From: Gluconobacter aidae | GTDB taxonomy: Bacteria; Pseudomonadota; Alphaproteobacteria; Acetobacterales; Acetobacteraceae | DNA length: 38,044 nucleotides | Direction of reading: 5' to 3' | NCBI RefSeq assembly: GCF_009547075.1 | Contig: NZ_WIPH01000025.1 | Span: 1-38,044 of the forward strand | Part shown: in pieces, positions 20,757-34,080 of the stretch | How the letters are laid out: each line of letters opens with the position of its first letter | Position numbering within the stretch: position 1 is the stretch's first letter | The notes under the pieces: model-generated | Database searches by the model: none | What the model was told of the DNA's origin: nothing | What the model saw: the letters and a program-made list of their open reading frames with translations, nothing else | Translations under genes and position numbers: made by a program

Positions 20757-20890
20757 GATCCTGTTCCTTCTGACTGCACTGACGAAAGATCCGTCTTTAG
20801 CGTTCAGATCATGCGGCATTTTCGAGCCCGACCCAACCTCCCCTGAACATTGTGAAGACAGATTTGCATCGCGCGCCTAAAACGGAGGCC

Positions 20891-22570
20891 ATGTCGGAAC
20901 AGCAGAAATCCATAAGCGGTCGGCCGAACTGGTCAGATATTGTCGCGGGCCTCTCCCTTGCCTCGGTGAATATTCCGCAGGTTCTGGGCTATACGCGCAT
21001 TGCGGCCATGCCGGCGGTCACGGGGCTTTATACGGTCCTGCTGCCACTTGTGGCCTTTGCAGCGTTCGGTTCGTCCCGGCATCTGGTCGTAGCTGCCGAT
21101 TCCGCGACGGCTGCCATTTTCTCAAGTGCCATCGGCAAGATGGCGCTCCCTGAAAGCGCGCATTACATCGCGCTCGTCAGCATGACCGCACTCCTCTGCG
21201 CGGCACTTCTGCTGGTGGCGCGGGTCTTCCGGCTGGGGTTTCTGGCAGATTTCCTCTCCCGCACCGTGCTGACGGGATTTCTGGCCGGGGTGGGCGTGCA
21301 GGTCTGCATCGCGATGTTGCACGACATGCTGGGCGTGTCCGTCAGCGCGCATGACCCACTGCTTCAGGCTTACGAAACTCTCCGGCAGATCCCCCATGCC
21401 AGCCTCATGGTCGCGGGTCTCTCGGCGGTGACGGTGGGCATCCTCATGGCCGGGCAGCGTCTTGCCCCGCATCTTCCCGCCGGGCTCTGCGTCGTAATCG
21501 GCAGCATCGCGCTGAGCATGGGGCTGAACCTGTCCCATCATGGCGTTCCCACGCTGGGACATGTCGCGGGTGGCCTGCCGCATTTCGGCCTGCCGGACGT
21601 TTCCTGGAACGAGCTTCTGGACCTTCTGCCGGTCGCGGGGTCCTGCGTGTTCGTCATCATCGCACAGAGCGCGGCCACGTCCCGGGCCTTCGGAGAACTC
21701 TTTCATGAGACCGTCGATGAGGACCGCGACCTTCTGGGCCTGTCGGCGGCCAATATCGCAGCCGGGCTGAGTGGAACCTTCACCGTCAATGGCAGCCCGA
21801 CCCAGACCGCCATGGCCGTCCGCTCCGGCGCGCGGACGCAGGCCGCACAGGTCACGTTCGCCTGCGTGACGCTTCTGGTGCTGCTTTTCCTGACCCGCCC
21901 GCTGGAGGCCCTGCCGCGCTGCGTTCTGGCCGGGATCGTCTTTACGGTCGCGGTTGGCATGATCGACCTGAAAAGCCTGCGCGCCATCCGGCAGGAAAGT
22001 CCGGGAGAGTTCTGGCTGGCCATGACAACCGCCGCCGTGGTTGTGGGGATAGGCGTCGAGGAAGGCATTTTCCTCGCCATTGCGCTCTCGCTGTTCCGCC
22101 ATGTCCGGCACAGCTACGAGCCGCATACGCTGGTGCTGCAACAGTCTCCGACCGCCGGGGTTCTGGAAGCCCTGCCCGCAAAGGACGGGCTGGAAAGCGC
22201 GCCCGGACTGATCGTCTTCCGCTTCTGCGCGGACCTGTTCTACGCCAATTCGACGCGCTTTCGGCAGGATCTGCTGGCGCTGGTAGACCACGCCCCCCAT
22301 CCGGTGCGCTGCGTGGTGCTGGATGCCAGTCCCGTCACCGATATCGACTATTCCGCCGCCGCGGACCTGCGGGACCTGATCGCGCAGCTCCATCAACGCG
22401 GCATCACGCTGATTTTCGGCCGGGTAAGCGTCTTTCTTCGCGCGGACATGGACCGGCACCACATCACCCTGGCCCTCGGCGCAGCCAATATCTACGCCGA
22501 GCTGCACACGGCGCTGAAGGCCGCCCACAACATTCTGGACGGCTCTGCGGTGCCCGTCAGGCCTTCCTGA
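20891..22570 (+). CDS. SulP-family anion transporter with STAS domain
   Basis: An inner-membrane anion transporter of the sulfate permease family, 559 residues from the ATG at 20891. The SulP signature region reads [20 protein letters not shown] near the N-terminus. About eleven to fourteen hydrophobic segments follow, with the conserved [18 protein letters not shown] loop (substrate region). A C-terminal STAS domain (about 440-545) has [20 protein letters not shown] and [24 protein letters not shown] lies just two bases before this ATG. A GTG at 20852 would add 13 residues. The anion may be sulfate, bicarbonate or another oxyanion; no carbonic anhydrase is nearby. The 3' end overlaps the convergent phnA-like gene by 14 bases. 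Confidence 0.9.
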
Positions 22571-24868: not shown

Positions 24869-25702
24869 TCAGTGTTCCAGAGAGAACTCGATGGGCACCG
24901 TCAGGGACAGTGGATCGCCCGGCACGCTGTCGGGCGGAACGGGCAGCGGTTCGGCACGGTGGATCAGGGCCAGCGTCTCCGCATCCAGCAGGTCATGTCC
25001 CGCGCTGCGCTGGAGGCTGGCGCTCAGAACATGACCTTTGCGGTCCATGACGAAATGCAGCAGGGACGTTCCTTCCTGATGCGTGGACTGGGCTTCCCGC
25101 GGATAGCGCCTGAACCGTTCCAGACGCGCCAGAAGCTCGCCCTGCCAGGTGACGGGATCATGCGATACATGGCTGAACGTGCTGGCCGAAGCGGCGCTCG
25201 GGCTGGTCGTGGGCGGGGCTTCCATAATGCGCGGAGCCGTTATCTTTTCCGCAGGTGGCGCTTTGGCCGGAACGGGCGGGAGCGGCTTGTGCGCACTCGG
25301 CTTGTGCGGCCTGACCTTTTCCGTCTTGGACACCGGGACCGGCGGGTTGGGCGCAGGGCTTGGCGGCGCTTCAACCTTGGGGGGATCTTCCGGCTGCGGC
25401 TCCGTCGAGGCCACTGCCTGCTGCGGAGCGGGATCGACATCCTGCTGCGGGGCCGGAACCGGCGCAGGGACAGGGGCGAGATCGATGCTGATCGCAGCCG
25501 GGGGCGGTTCGGCGGCCAGAATGGGCTGGGGATGGACGGACGTTACCGCCCAGAACAGGACACCCCCCGTAAGGATGACAACACCCAACGCCGAGCCACC
25601 CCAGAGCCGTGCACTCCGGCGGTCTTCCAGACGGCAGGTCGCGGCGTACCATTCCCGAAAATCCGGCAGCGTCGCTTGCACGGAGGTCAGTCCGTCCGAC
25701 AT
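24869..25702 (-). CDS. tonB: TonB energy-transducing protein
   Basis: A 277-residue periplasm-spanning protein that couples the proton-motive force to outer-membrane receptors. A cytoplasmic N-terminus of about 32 residues leads to one membrane helix (GGSALGVVILTGGVLFWAV, about 35-53). A proline- and lysine-rich spacer follows (about 65-165, with PVPAPVPAPQQDVDPAPQQ and HKPSAHKPLPPVPAKAPP). The C-terminal TonB domain (about 190-277) has LARLERFRRYPREAQ and GTSLLHFVMDRKGHVLSASL, and ends VPIEFSLEH. Its ATG overlaps the exbD stop by one base. It is last in the exbB-exbD-tonB operon and, with exbB broken, depends on another ExbB for function. Confidence 0.93.
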   Translation of the reverse strand: MSDGLTSVQATLPDFREWYAATCRLEDRRSARLWGGSALGVVILTGGVLFWAVTSVHPQPILAAEPPPAAISIDLAPVPAPVPAPQQDVDPAPQQAVASTEPQPEDPPKVEAPPSPAPNPPVPVSKTEKVRPHKPSAHKPLPPVPAKAPPAEKITAPRIMEAPPTTSPSAASASTFSHVSHDPVTWQGELLARLERFRRYPREAQSTHQEGTSLLHFVMDRKGHVLSASLQRSAGHDLLDAETLALIHRAEPLPVPPDSVPGDPLSLTVPIEFSLEH

Positions 25703-26136
25703 CAGGGCGTCGTTCCGGTCGTCTGGCCTTGCAGAGTCACAAGGGCCACCTTGAGATATCCCGCGCTGCGCAGATGGTCCATGACGTCCATGAGCGTGCC
25801 GTAATCCACGGTCTTGTCGGCGCGCAGGAAGATGCGTTCATCGCGATTGCCCCTGGTCGCGGCGGCGAGCGCTTCCGTCAGTTGCGCGGCTGGCACGTCG
25901 TTTTCGCCCAAGGCCAGATTGTGGTCCGCCTTGACGGTCAGGAACACGGGTTCGTCCGGCCGGGGGGCCGTCTGCTGCGTGGAGGAGGGAAGATCGACAG
26001 GGACATTGACGGTGGTGAGCGGGGCCGTGACCATGAAAATCACGAGCAGCACCAGCATGACGTCGATGAACGGCGTGACGTTGATTTCGTGCGTTTCAAG
26101 CACGGTTTCGTCCGCATGGCGGATCCGGATGGCCAT
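25702..26136 (-). CDS. exbD: ExbD proton-channel subunit
   Basis: A 144-residue inner-membrane protein of the TonB motor. A short cytoplasmic start is followed by INVTPFIDVMLVLLVIFMVT (18-37), with Asp25 at the position of the essential membrane aspartate of ExbD. A periplasmic domain follows with DEPVFLTVKADHNLALGEND and ERIFLRADKTVDYGTLMDVM. GTAGG lies five bases before the ATG. The start is six bases after the end of the exbB reading frame, and the stop overlaps tonB. The protein appears intact, unlike its partner exbB. Confidence 0.95.
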   Translation of the reverse strand: MAIRIRHADETVLETHEINVTPFIDVMLVLLVIFMVTAPLTTVNVPVDLPSSTQQTAPRPDEPVFLTVKADHNLALGENDVPAAQLTEALAAATRGNRDERIFLRADKTVDYGTLMDVMDHLRSAGYLKVALVTLQGQTTGTTP

Positions 26137-26142
26137 GGAAAC

Positions 26143-26869
26143 CTACTCTGCCGCAGCCAGCGTATCGCGGCCGAAGCGAAGCACCTTGCCGCCGTTGATC
26201 CCGCGCGCCAGATCGCGCGAGACGAGACGCATCACGAGCGACGTCAGATCCGCGACACAGGCGCGGCAGGCGGCCGTCTGACGGGCCAGATGATTTTAGA
26301 TCACCACGGCCGGAATGGCCGCGACGAGACCAAGCGCAGTAGCCAGCAGGGCTTCGGCGATACCAGGCGCCACAACCGCAAGGCTGGTGGCATGAGCCGC
26401 GGCAATGCCCGTGAAGGACGACATGATCCCCCCAGACCGTGCCGAACAGCCCGACGAACGGGGACGTCGCCCCGATAGTCGCGAGAACACCCGTCCCCCG
26501 CATCAGTCTGCGCCCTTCCGCAGCTTCCAGCCTCTCAAGATGCAGCACGATGCGCTCCTTGATACCCTCGCGGTCGCCGGGAATGTCCTGCGAGCGCTGA
26601 CGCTCGACTTCAGCCGCCATGACCATGGCATGCGCGATACCGGAACGCGGGCCGGTGCGCGTCCATTCCTCACCCATATCCAGCGTTTCAGCATCCTCCA
26701 GAGCGATTTCCGACTTTTTCAGCCGGGAGCGCAGACGCTGAAGCTCGATGGATTTGGCAACAAAAATTGTCCAGGTCACGAGCGAGGCCATCGCGAGGAT
26801 CGTCATGACACTCCGCACGACCGGACCTGCATTGAGAAACATCTGCCAGGGAGCGAAGCTGAGGGACAT
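26143..26869 (-). pseudogene. exbB: exbB, disrupted by one insertion and one nonsense codon
   Basis: The N-terminal half is a normal ExbB: VVRSVMTILAMASLVTWTIF, RLRSRLKKSEIALEDAETL and [23 protein letters not shown] run of six G residues (26428-26433) then shifts the frame. With five, the protein continues [20 protein letters not shown] and [12 protein letters not shown]. In that corrected frame a TAA at 26296-26298 stands where ExbB normally has a tyrosine codon (VIYNH). The frame then resumes NHLARQTAACRACVADLTSL to a TAG at 26143-26145. Removing one base gives exactly 242 codons. Two independent lesions make a decayed gene more likely than a read error. The start ATG 26869 has AGG seven bases upstream and a Fur-like box 47 bases further up. 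Confidence 0.9.
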
Positions 26870-26915
26870 CACGAAACCTGCATGGGTTGGAAAAATCCTG
26901 AAAGTCCACGATAAT

Positions 26916-26934
26916 GATATTGATTCTTATTATC
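26916..26934. promoter_or_regulatory. Fur-like box upstream of exbB-exbD-tonB
   Basis: GATATTGATTCTTATTATC matches 15 of 19 positions of the classical Fur box GATAATGATAATCATTATC. It stands about 47 bases upstream of the exbB start in an AT-rich stretch, where an iron repressor would cover the promoter. Confidence 0.72.
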
Positions 26935-27027
26935 AATAAGGATTACACAGCCGTCATATCGTATCCTGTCAGAACTCCCGGCCAGCCTCCGGGAAGCCGT
27001 AAGGATCATTTTCCTTCAGATCCCGGT

Positions 27028-27579
27028 TCACCGGCCTGACGGATGCTCATGGCCTGACCGGTCACCCGATCCATGATGAGGAGGCTGAAGCGCTGCGACC
27101 ACCGTATCGTTGACGGGTCGGCTGGAGGCTTTTGCAATATCCTCAAGGGTCTGGTCCGCCGTCTGAACCGTATAGCCCTGCTCCTGAAGACGCCGCACAA
27201 GTCCGTCCCCGTCCATACGGATCAGGAGCGCGATCCGGGACAGCGGGGCATGTTCAAGGACGGGCAACGCTATGGACGCGGTTTTTCTGTTGCCCACATG
27301 TCCACCGGGAGCCTGGAAAAAGAACGGAATACAGGCCGCAAACGCGATAATCAGCGGCACAAACAGCGTCCGCCGCCGGGCGTAATTGACCAGCGGCGTC
27401 CAGTTCCTGATGACATGCAGCACAAATGGCGCAAGAAGCGTCATGCTGAGCCATTCATGGATGGGGTGAAACGCCAGTGGCGCCCAGTGGAAAAACAGCG
27501 CGACCCCCGTCACGCCAGAGACAATGAAGAACCCCGTCGTGAGCGGTGTTCCATAACGGCTCATGAATGTCCTGAACAT
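27028..27579 (-). CDS. DUF4405 family membrane protein
   Basis: A 183-residue membrane protein. TGFFIVSGVTGVALFFHW (about 13-30) is the first helix. FHPIHEWLSMTLLAPFVLHV (about 36-55) carries the paired histidines usual for DUF4405 haem-binding helices. TLFVPLIIAFAACIPFFFQA is the third helix. A soluble tail of about 100 residues follows, with ALLIRMDGDGLVRRLQEQGY and TVQTADQTLEDIAKASSRPV. The start at 27579 has AGGA seven bases upstream; the frame to 27633 is not family-like. The last 28 residues (LQPPHHGSG to the end) have an unusual composition, while the neighbouring frame reads LLIMDRVTGQAM, so a late frameshift is possible. It may bind haem and act in electron transfer. It lies upstream of exbB on the same strand. 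Confidence 0.72.
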   Translation of the reverse strand: MFRTFMSRYGTPLTTGFFIVSGVTGVALFFHWAPLAFHPIHEWLSMTLLAPFVLHVIRNWTPLVNYARRRTLFVPLIIAFAACIPFFFQAPGGHVGNRKTASIALPVLEHAPLSRIALLIRMDGDGLVRRLQEQGYTVQTADQTLEDIAKASSRPVNDTVVAALQPPHHGSGDRSGHEHPSGR

Positions 27580-27879
27580 CTGGCTTTCCTGTGCCGGATC
27601 ATGCCATACGCAGCGAAAAGTGCCGGCGAACACGCATTTGCTGACAGCCTGATCGTGTCATCCGTGGCCGTATCCGCACGACCGGAAAGATGCGTCCGAT
27701 GACGACGGGCCAATGACGACGGGATTGAAAAATCGTTTTCTGAAGGCATGCAGCGCCTGAACTCTGGAAACTCCACAGATCGTCCGACGGGCTCCGCCTG
27801 ATCCGGATGGGACCACGCTTCAGGCAAAACCGCCGCGACGTTCTGACCGGAGCCTGTTTCCTTCGTTCCGGGCTTTAAT

Positions 27880-27898
27880 GCAAATGGTTATCAATATC
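27880..27898. promoter_or_regulatory. Second Fur-like box
   Basis: GCAAATGGTTATCAATATC matches 14 of 19 positions of the Fur consensus. It shares the decamer TGATATTGAT, on the opposite strand, with the exbB box. It could serve the leftward DUF4405 gene, about 300 bases away, or the rightward pstS, about 140 bases away. Confidence 0.48.
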
Positions 27899-27918
27899 AA
27901 ATTTTGCGTAATAGCCAT

Positions 27919-31756: not shown

Positions 31757-31884
31757 GATATAGCATATTGCATATCATGACGCAGATGCTTTATTCCTGA
31801 CGGACTTCCATCTTCCATGGTGACCGAAACCCATTCGCAGGCGTCCCTTTCATGCACACCATCATATATAGCATAAGCTATATA
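31757..31884. repeat. AT-rich palindromes at the TonB-receptor start
   Basis: Two palindromes share ATATAGCATA. One lies at 31757-31776 (GATAT and ATATC around GCATATTGC). The other, at 31865-31884, has perfect eight-base arms TATATAGC and GCTATATA around four bases. TATAAT follows at 31881. The stretch is far more AT-rich than its surroundings and may hold the receptor promoter and operator, or mark a junction with imported DNA. Confidence 0.5.
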
Positions 31885-34080
31885 ATAATCAGTTTACTAT
31901 TGCGGAATAAACGCATCTGCGGTTGTATGGTCATCAATCTGACCATTCTCGGCACCGCTTGCGCCAACACCCCATTGCCCGAAAACAGCCTCCGGACACT
32001 CAAAAAACCGGCCTTCGCGGACAAAAAGCCTGCTCCTGAACGGATCAGCGTCATCGGACATCTCAACAGCGAACGCGCCCGCATTTTCCCGGGTCTCGGA
32101 GCGGTGGATTATACCATCGACCAGCACCAGATCACGACCACACCGGGCGGCCAGAACGCGGCCTTCAACCAGATCCTCCTGCGCGTCCCCGGTGTCGTTC
32201 TCGACAGCTATGGCGAGGTCCATGTCCGGGGCGAGCACGGCGGCCTGACCTATCGCGTCAACGGCGTGCTGCTGCCGGAAGGGCTGAACGGCTTCGGACA
32301 GGAACTCGACACGCGCATTATCCAGTCCGTGGACCTGCTGACCGGCACGCTGCCCGCCCAGTTCGGCTTCCGCACGGCGGGCGTGGTGGATGTGACGACC
32401 AAGACCGGCGACAGCCTCAAACACAATCAGGTCTCGCTGTATGGCGGCAGCTACAACACGTTCGTCCCGTCCGTGCAGCTTGGCGGCCAGCATGGAAAGC
32501 TGGATTATTTCACCACCCTGTCCTTCACCCGCAACAATATCGGCATCGAAAACCCGAGCAACACCTTCCGCGCCATTCATGACGTGACCGAACAGGAAAA
32601 AGCCTTCGCGTATCTGTCCTATCATCTCGACGACGCAAGCCGGATCACGCTGCTGACGAGCGCCTCCTACGCGGATTTCGAAATCCCCAACTCGTTCAAG
32701 ACATTCGACACGACCAGCCCGGACTACACGACCCTGTACAATGTCGCGGGCGTCAATCCGCATGACCCGTCCATGAACTGGGCCAATCTGAACGACAGCC
32801 AGACGGAACAGAACTACTATGCCGTGCTGTCCTATCAGCGCACGACCGAAAAACTGAACCTCCAGGTCTCACCCTATTTCCGCTACGGCCGGATCGACTA
32901 CACACCGGACCGGGACCGCGACCTGATCTATCAGGGCGTCTCGGAACACGAAGTCAACGACTTCACAACCGGCGGGATGCAGGCCGACCTGTCCTACGAC
33001 ATCGCCCCCCATCACACCCTGCGCGCCGGTCTGCTGGGGCAGTACACGTCCGAACGTCTGGATGCCGATACGCTGGCCTTCCCTGTGGACGAGGCCGGAA
33101 ACCAGACATCCGACATCGCCAAACGCATGATCGACAATACCGGGAACTGGTCCGTCGAAGCGGGCGCCTATATTCAGGACGAGTACAAAATCACCCGCAA
33201 CCTGACCTTCAATTACGGCATCCGCTACGACCGTTTCGCCTCGTCTTTCGACAATGAAGGGCAACTCAGCCCACGTGCGAACATGGTCTGGAAACCCAGC
33301 CGCACCACGACGCTACATCTCGGCTATTCGCGCTATTTCGCCCCGCCTTCCCCGCAATATGTCTACCCGTCCACACTCGCGCGCTTCGCGGGCACCACCA
33401 ACGCCGCCGCGAACACGATCAACAACGCCACGAAAGTCGAGAAATCGAATTACGTCGATGGCGGCATTCTCCAGCGCATCACGCCCGAGTTCCAGATCAC
33501 ACTCGATGCCTACGCCAAATGGGCGCATGACCTCACCGATCTCGGACAGTTCGGCCGCGCGGTCATCCTCGCCCCCTTCAGCTACAAACGCGGTCGCGTC
33601 TATGGCGCGGAATTCGGCAGTTCCTGGCGGCACGGCCCCTGGTCGCTGTTCGGCAATTTTTCCTACGTCAAAACCTCGGCCCGCGACATCAATTCAGCGC
33701 AGTACCAGTTCGATCTCGCGGAACTCGCCTATATCCGCAACCATGCGATCCAGCTCGACCATCAGGGCGAATTCACCGCCACCGCAGGCGCATCCTGGAC
33801 CACGAAACACGACATGGCCTATGTCGATTTCGTCTACGGCTACGGCCTGCGCAGCGGCTTCGCCAACCTGGAAAAAGAGCCGCAATACGACGTCTTCAAC
33901 ATCGGCTACCAGCATACCTTCACGAAGGTCCCGGTCGGCCATGACATCAAAATCCGCGCTGACGTCATGAACCTGTTCGACAAACGCTACCAGCTGCGCA
34001 ACGGCAGCGGCGTCGGCATCTATCAGGCCCAGTACGGCCAGCGGCGCGGCACGTTTTTCTCAGTCGTCTCGGAGTTCTGA
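31852..34080 (+). CDS. TonB-dependent outer-membrane receptor
   Basis: A receptor of up to 742 residues for import of an iron chelate or other scarce solute. A TonB-box-like segment ERISVIGHL is followed by the plug domain (about 75-190), with FNQILLRVPGVVLDSYGEVH, VRGEHGGLTYRVNG and AGVVDVTTKTGD. A barrel of about 540 residues comes next (AYIQDEYKITRNLTFNYGIR, then DRFASSF), ending DVMNLFDKRYQLRNGSGVGI, then FFSVVSEF with terminal Phe. The first 16 codons are AT-rich (ATA, TTA, CTA) and precede a better signal peptide, RNKRICGCMVINLTILGTAC, A. A TTG at 31900 would start exactly there, so the true start may be later than 31852. It needs TonB-ExbB-ExbD for function. The ligand is unknown. Confidence 0.88.
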   Translation: MHTIIYSISYIIISLLLRNKRICGCMVINLTILGTACANTPLPENSLRTLKKPAFADKKPAPERISVIGHLNSERARIFPGLGAVDYTIDQHQITTTPGGQNAAFNQILLRVPGVVLDSYGEVHVRGEHGGLTYRVNGVLLPEGLNGFGQELDTRIIQSVDLLTGTLPAQFGFRTAGVVDVTTKTGDSLKHNQVSLYGGSYNTFVPSVQLGGQHGKLDYFTTLSFTRNNIGIENPSNTFRAIHDVTEQEKAFAYLSYHLDDASRITLLTSASYADFEIPNSFKTFDTTSPDYTTLYNVAGVNPHDPSMNWANLNDSQTEQNYYAVLSYQRTTEKLNLQVSPYFRYGRIDYTPDRDRDLIYQGVSEHEVNDFTTGGMQADLSYDIAPHHTLRAGLLGQYTSERLDADTLAFPVDEAGNQTSDIAKRMIDNTGNWSVEAGAYIQDEYKITRNLTFNYGIRYDRFASSFDNEGQLSPRANMVWKPSRTTTLHLGYSRYFAPPSPQYVYPSTLARFAGTTNAAANTINNATKVEKSNYVDGGILQRITPEFQITLDAYAKWAHDLTDLGQFGRAVILAPFSYKRGRVYGAEFGSSWRHGPWSLFGNFSYVKTSARDINSAQYQFDLAELAYIRNHAIQLDHQGEFTATAGASWTTKHDMAYVDFVYGYGLRSGFANLEKEPQYDVFNIGYQHTFTKVPVGHDIKIRADVMNLFDKRYQLRNGSGVGIYQAQYGQRRGTFFSVVSEF

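Follow-up and report, generated by a model that had tools for sequence, protein, structure and literature searches.

A probable recent exbB pseudogene in a receptor-less second Ton module of Gluconobacter aidae

Does a cell in which exbB carries two disabling lesions still possess a TonB motor, and how did the gene come to be broken beside an exbD and a tonB that have remained open? The locus raising this question lies on contig C46 of a Gluconobacter genome of 3.0 Mb, a draft in 127 contigs. The window, i.e., the whole stretch of DNA analyzed, is this contig at its full length of 38,044 bases, and exbB, exbD, and tonB are adjacent in it, in that order. The genus was sampled with 26 Gluconobacter genomes, the genome under study (G000) included, the relatives mentioned below being other species; the closest by region was G012, with ~90.7% identity across tonB-exbD-exbB. 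Copies of exbB from eight relatives were aligned to that of the window (G008, G011, G012, G013, G016, G017, G020, and G024, of which G016 is Gluconobacter sp. Dm-62).

The exbB gene (26143..26872, minus strand) was found, both by direct reading and by alignment to the relatives, to be broken by an extra base in a G run and by an in-frame TAA. The preliminary description had reported a one-base insertion in the G run at 26428..26433 (minus strand; six C on the plus strand), and this was borne out, since the run is one base shorter in all eight aligned relatives; the extra base changes the reading frame near codon 148. The TAA that it had placed at a conserved tyrosine (26296..26298, minus strand; TTA on the plus strand; about codon 192) was likewise recovered, and 8/8 aligned relatives carry a Tyr codon at this position. 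Measured from its ATG at 26869 to its TAG, the last base of which is 26143, the gene is one base longer than 242 codons, and the ATG of exbD follows this TAG after six bases, in agreement with the earlier claim that undoing the insertion restores 242 codons. The reading frame of exbB is thus not intact in the window. The shifted frame bypasses the TAA and continues to a stop at 26096-26098, inside exbD, which results in an open reading frame of 258 codons (26096..26872, minus strand) made up of about 147 native codons and an out-of-frame tail.

The open ExbB of Dm-62 passes TIGR02797 with 330.9 bits against a cut-off of 206.2; the actual exbB frame of the window scored 192.1 bits with its native part only, which is below the cut-off. 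Two ExbB structures, PDB 5sv0 and 7ajq, which we take to be those of Escherichia coli and Serratia, align to residues 3-221 of a relative's ExbB. The comparison runs through the relative's copy, that of the window being broken near codons 148 and 192. The third membrane helix, together with the end of the second, presumably lies beyond residue 147, and the frame-shifted product would retain the first helix and a portion of the second, with the rest lost. ExbD and TonB from the operon would therefore have no partner of their own. We speculate that ribosomes reaching exbD on this message may shield exbD and tonB from polar effects. When a shared full-length frame-shifted product was looked for, none of the 120 matches listed, out of 7,391 protein matches, covered more than 60% of the 258 codons, and none listed therefore has the whole tail; scoring was limited to the 8,000 candidates with the most words in common, and a copy from the same species could be masked by the clustering at 90%.

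One or both lesions could be sequencing or assembly errors, with exbB being intact in the living strain. The genome is a 127-contig draft, one lesion sits in a homopolymer, and the 3' part of exbB is otherwise fully constrained, all of which would fit this explanation. A read error had already been argued against in the preliminary description, and a test on the 258 kb of contig C1, in which no true break was recognized, strengthens that argument. Of 194 conserved G012 open reading frames tested there, 10 were flagged in the genome under study; with the two genomes exchanged, 12 of 190 were flagged in G012. Four of the 10 flags were inspected and none was a true break. Three of these were located mid-gene, two being upstream extensions of a conserved gene and the third a frame of 123 residues where further frames are open too, and the fourth was a frame change in the start region, upstream of the likely start. 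The other six fell within the first 40 or the last 8 codons. The test applies a codon-position filter that drops frames if their identity is below 70%, their coverage is below 60%, or their third-position differences are too few; without this filter, 25 of 191 and 38 of 184 frames were flagged, antisense frames included.

Applied to the window, the test covered 15, 17, 16, and 17 open reading frames against G012, G011, G017, and G013, respectively, and flagged 3, 2, 2, and 5 of them. Only exbB was flagged against all four relatives, and the break therefore exceeds chance; the other flags were antisense frames or start extensions, as judged from coordinates only. All 39 receptor matches in the genome, at least one of which (on C67) is partial, were devoid of internal stops. 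In addition, exbB is located well within its contig, and tonB is drifting as well. A sequencing error is possible, yet it is not the best reading of these observations, and we consider it unlikely.

The surroundings of exbB differed from those in the relatives. In seven of them (G005, which is G. cerinus NBRC 3267, G011, G012, G013, G016, G017, and G024) the gene order was found to be siderophore receptor, sel1-repeat, O-methyltransferase, DUF4405, exbB, exbD, and tonB, and G018 has a receptor at about equal distance from exbB. The relatives' receptor passes the cut-off of TIGR01783, a model for TonB-dependent siderophore receptors. Within the window no match was found to the receptor body, the sel1-repeat gene, or the methyltransferase gene, and the whole genome contained no receptor closer than 42% to that of the relatives. 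A scar of the lost receptor gene is present at 27580..27900 (minus strand), consisting of the region ahead of the gene and roughly its first 15 codons, the start codon being assumed. It is followed by an open but diverged gene for a DUF4405-like membrane protein (27031..27579, minus strand), the Pfam match of which reached 22.4 bits, below the cut-off of 26.7.

A different TonB-dependent receptor gene, open and matching the barrel family but, at threshold, not Plug, was identified at 31852-34080 of the window. It is nearest to heme receptor models while scoring below their cut-offs, and its relative in G012 and G020 is located on the far side of the siderophore receptor site.

Matches to the window-type ExbB were found in 16 of the 26 genomes at E 1e-40 and were missing from 10. 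The gene was open in all 15 of the other matching genomes and is broken only here. Window-type ExbD was present in the same 16 genomes, in G018 over only 109 residues, and window-type TonB in 18, two of which (G004 and G019) have distant or partial matches. A receptor with at least 75% identity accompanied ExbB in 12 of the 15 other genomes, the exceptions being G003, G008, and G020. Remnants of the 5' end of the receptor gene were retained in G008 (~161 codons) and G020 (~95 codons), exbB being open in both, and their unequal lengths suggest separate deletions. As the receptor is lost in G008 and G020, a close one is lacking in G003, and ExbB is nevertheless open in all three, loss of the receptor is insufficient to force decay of the motor gene. 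A plasmid origin of the contig was also considered and rejected: no plasmid record covered 80% of it, and the best match, a Komagataeibacter plasmid, had a coverage of 20% at 71.6%.

The window is a mosaic. Phylogenetic trees of the DUF4405 gene and of exbB (its 5'-terminal 432 bases) grouped it with G008 (support 1.000 and 0.951, respectively), and trees of exbD and tonB placed it inside the main Gluconobacter cluster, the exact neighbor being weakly supported. The site patterns switch accordingly. From 24881 to 26180 only 4 sites were shared with G008 alone against 139 common to the whole cluster, and from 26681 to 27580 the numbers were 89 against 53 (Fisher 9e-31, for bins picked after the profile had been viewed and sites that are not independent). 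These counts are bin sums that exclude the last partial bin and the transition zone at 26180..26680, across which the pattern changes from that of the main cluster on the tonB side to a G008-like one on the DUF4405 side. The 3' part of exbB had a mixed pattern. At the slip site, the codon that lengthens the G run was found in G008 only among the aligned relatives. On sequence comparison, the window carries a G008-like segment comprising the DUF4405 gene and the 5' part of exbB and lacking the receptor. Homologous recombination would be the simplest route by which this segment was acquired, the donor being akin to a receptor-less relative.

Upstream of exbB we identified a Fur-box-like palindrome (26909..26937, minus strand) with 16/19 identity at 26916-26934, compared to a best of 12-13 in five shuffled windows. 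The spare Ton module may thus be controlled by iron through Fur. A second Fur-box-like site (15/19) was located at 27880-27898, within what is left of the region preceding the lost receptor gene.

The pattern of substitutions indicates how recently exbB was broken. Compared to Dm-62, the 3' part of the gene had 31 synonymous codon differences and one other, the stop. Among lineage-specific sites there were 8 synonymous changes, no missense change, and 1 stop, and with more relatives included 1 synonymous change, no missense change, and 1 stop. Because all changes except the stop were synonymous, exbB appears to have been under constraint until very recently. Random substitutions in this part would yield ~0.9% stops and 69% missense changes, and a stop without any missense change is therefore odd under slow neutral drift, which weighs against the explanation favored below. 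The 5' part of exbB was without significant relaxation (p 0.12).

Among the neighbors, neither the DUF4405 gene nor exbD (25702..26136, minus strand; 144 aa) was found to have a significant excess of amino-acid changes, and exbD accordingly gave no significant sign of relaxation. The result was different for tonB (24869..25702, minus strand; 277 aa), which had 17 nonsynonymous and 7 synonymous singletons here against 28:60 in six relatives (p 0.0008). With more relatives the ratio was 12:2 against 78:76 (p 0.012), tonB being the only significant gene of five, and compared to four neighboring genes of the same genome the excess was also evident (p 0.0014). These four control genes pooled gave 43:80 here against 91:250 (p 0.10). 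One of them, encoding a SulP-family transporter (20852-22570 of the window), leans the same way as tonB, with 28:46 here against 28:104 in relatives (p 0.014). The earlier statement that exbD and tonB stay intact thus holds as far as both frames are open, but because of the excess of amino-acid changes in its protein, tonB is intact only as an open frame.

In the genome, matches to the MotA/ExbB family were found on C95, C41, and C1, in addition to the two pieces of exbB in the window. The match on C95 is TolQ by TIGR02796 and belongs to what we take, from its gene order, to be a tol-pal set; that on C1 is a family match; and that on C41 is part of a tonB-exbB-exbD-exbD operon in which all genes are open. 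The search for further exbB copies that had been proposed as a check hence returned both the C41 operon and the tol-pal set. The C41 ExbB is a distant form of 408 aa, below the ExbB and the TolQ equivalog cut-offs. Matches to it were present in 26/26 genomes, the 10 without a window-type ExbB match at E 1e-40 included. In G006 (C6:44390-45565) and G007 (C8:41839-43044) the match contained one TAA each, which may be due to the match extending upstream of the start. The preliminary description had expected the motor to be non-functional unless another ExbB serves it. The gene encoded here is indeed broken, but a second operon is present, and as this operon is open and its ExbB is found in 26/26 genomes, the cell retains a TonB motor. 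The C41 operon presumably energizes the TonB-dependent receptors that remain.

Three TonB C-terminal domains were found in the genome, the third of them at G000:C52:23578-23811 in an open frame of 408 codons, on a contig with no ExbB or ExbD match. The 39 barrel matches to TonB-dependent receptors in 3.0 Mb contrast with the one complete Ton operon left.

Similar arrangements are known. The hydroxamate-type receptor GOX0536 of G. oxydans neighbors ExbB (GOX0532) and ExbD (GOX0531), and in one comparison of transcripts all three were reported to be lowered jointly (PMC7567684). A siderophore receptor beside exbB-exbD is thus common to G. oxydans and the seven relatives, the likeness being one of gene arrangement; unlike this locus, the window lacks the receptor and two further genes, and its exbB is broken. 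The genome of Sphingobium SYK-6 contains more than one tonB and more than one exbB; disruption of its tonB1-exbB1-exbD1-exbD2 operon reportedly failed, in contrast to that of further tonB and exbB genes (PMC8599685). The C41 operon has the gene order of this set; Sphingobium belongs to another bacterial family. Both cases are in favor of one motor being the spare and the other the main one, but they are no proof of it. In the literature searched, by titles and abstract openings, decay of this exbB was unreported, and exbB does not occur in PMC12041372.

Altogether, exbB has probably become a pseudogene recently, within a second Ton module that is dispensable. The ancestral order would have been that of the relatives, a receptor module with a Fur-box-like site ahead of exbB. 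Recombination may then have delivered the receptor-less G008-like segment, i.e., the DUF4405 gene and the 5' part of exbB. Deprived of the receptor, the module would have lacked its presumed main client, after which the ExbB frame could have been lost through slippage in the G run and exbB could additionally have gained a nonsense codon. The sequence of these events is inferred. A bolder version, which we offer tentatively as it is itself unlikely, is that the recombination removing the receptor began the motor's fall by importing the slip-prone G run, and that ExbD, and perhaps TonB, were adopted by the second motor.

A related explanation is that ExbD and TonB of the operon are retained and run on another ExbB, from the second operon or as TolQ, in a mixed motor. 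ExbB and TolQ are partly interchangeable in E. coli, and exbD was without significant relaxation. The excess of amino-acid changes in tonB fits this poorly, as does the C41 ExbB being a distant 408-aa form below both equivalog cut-offs. A mixed motor is compatible with exbB being a pseudogene, and we regard it as rather improbable.

Loss of exbB could also have been favored, e.g., by phages or bacteriocins that use TonB-driven receptors, since under selection both lesions could arise quickly. Such agents enter other bacteria in a TonB-dependent manner, and two disabling lesions without missense change in the 3' part of exbB would be in agreement with selection. However, the second complete motor should still energize the receptors, and we regard selection for the loss of this exbB as quite improbable. 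Finally, production of full-length ExbB through slippage in the G run and readthrough of the TAA would account for conservation of the downstream part in the old frame, but it needs two recoding events on one messenger for a protein required in several copies per motor, neither lesion occurs in any of the eight aligned relatives, and we dismissed it on plausibility as scarcely credible.

If the bolder version given above were true, the locus would allow the reduction of a cell from two motors to one to be traced, the intermediate stages being present in sister species: receptor kept; receptor lost and ExbB intact; and receptor lost and ExbB broken. These stages suggest a stepwise natural series for the loss of a client receptor and its dedicated motor, in acetic acid bacteria, a genetically workable group. 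The suspicion that no TonB motor is left in the cell is corrected, as a second motor is present here and genus-wide. Seen together with the missing receptor and the mosaic segment, what looked like a one-gene curiosity is a module in decay; in all other respects it is gene decay of an ordinary kind.
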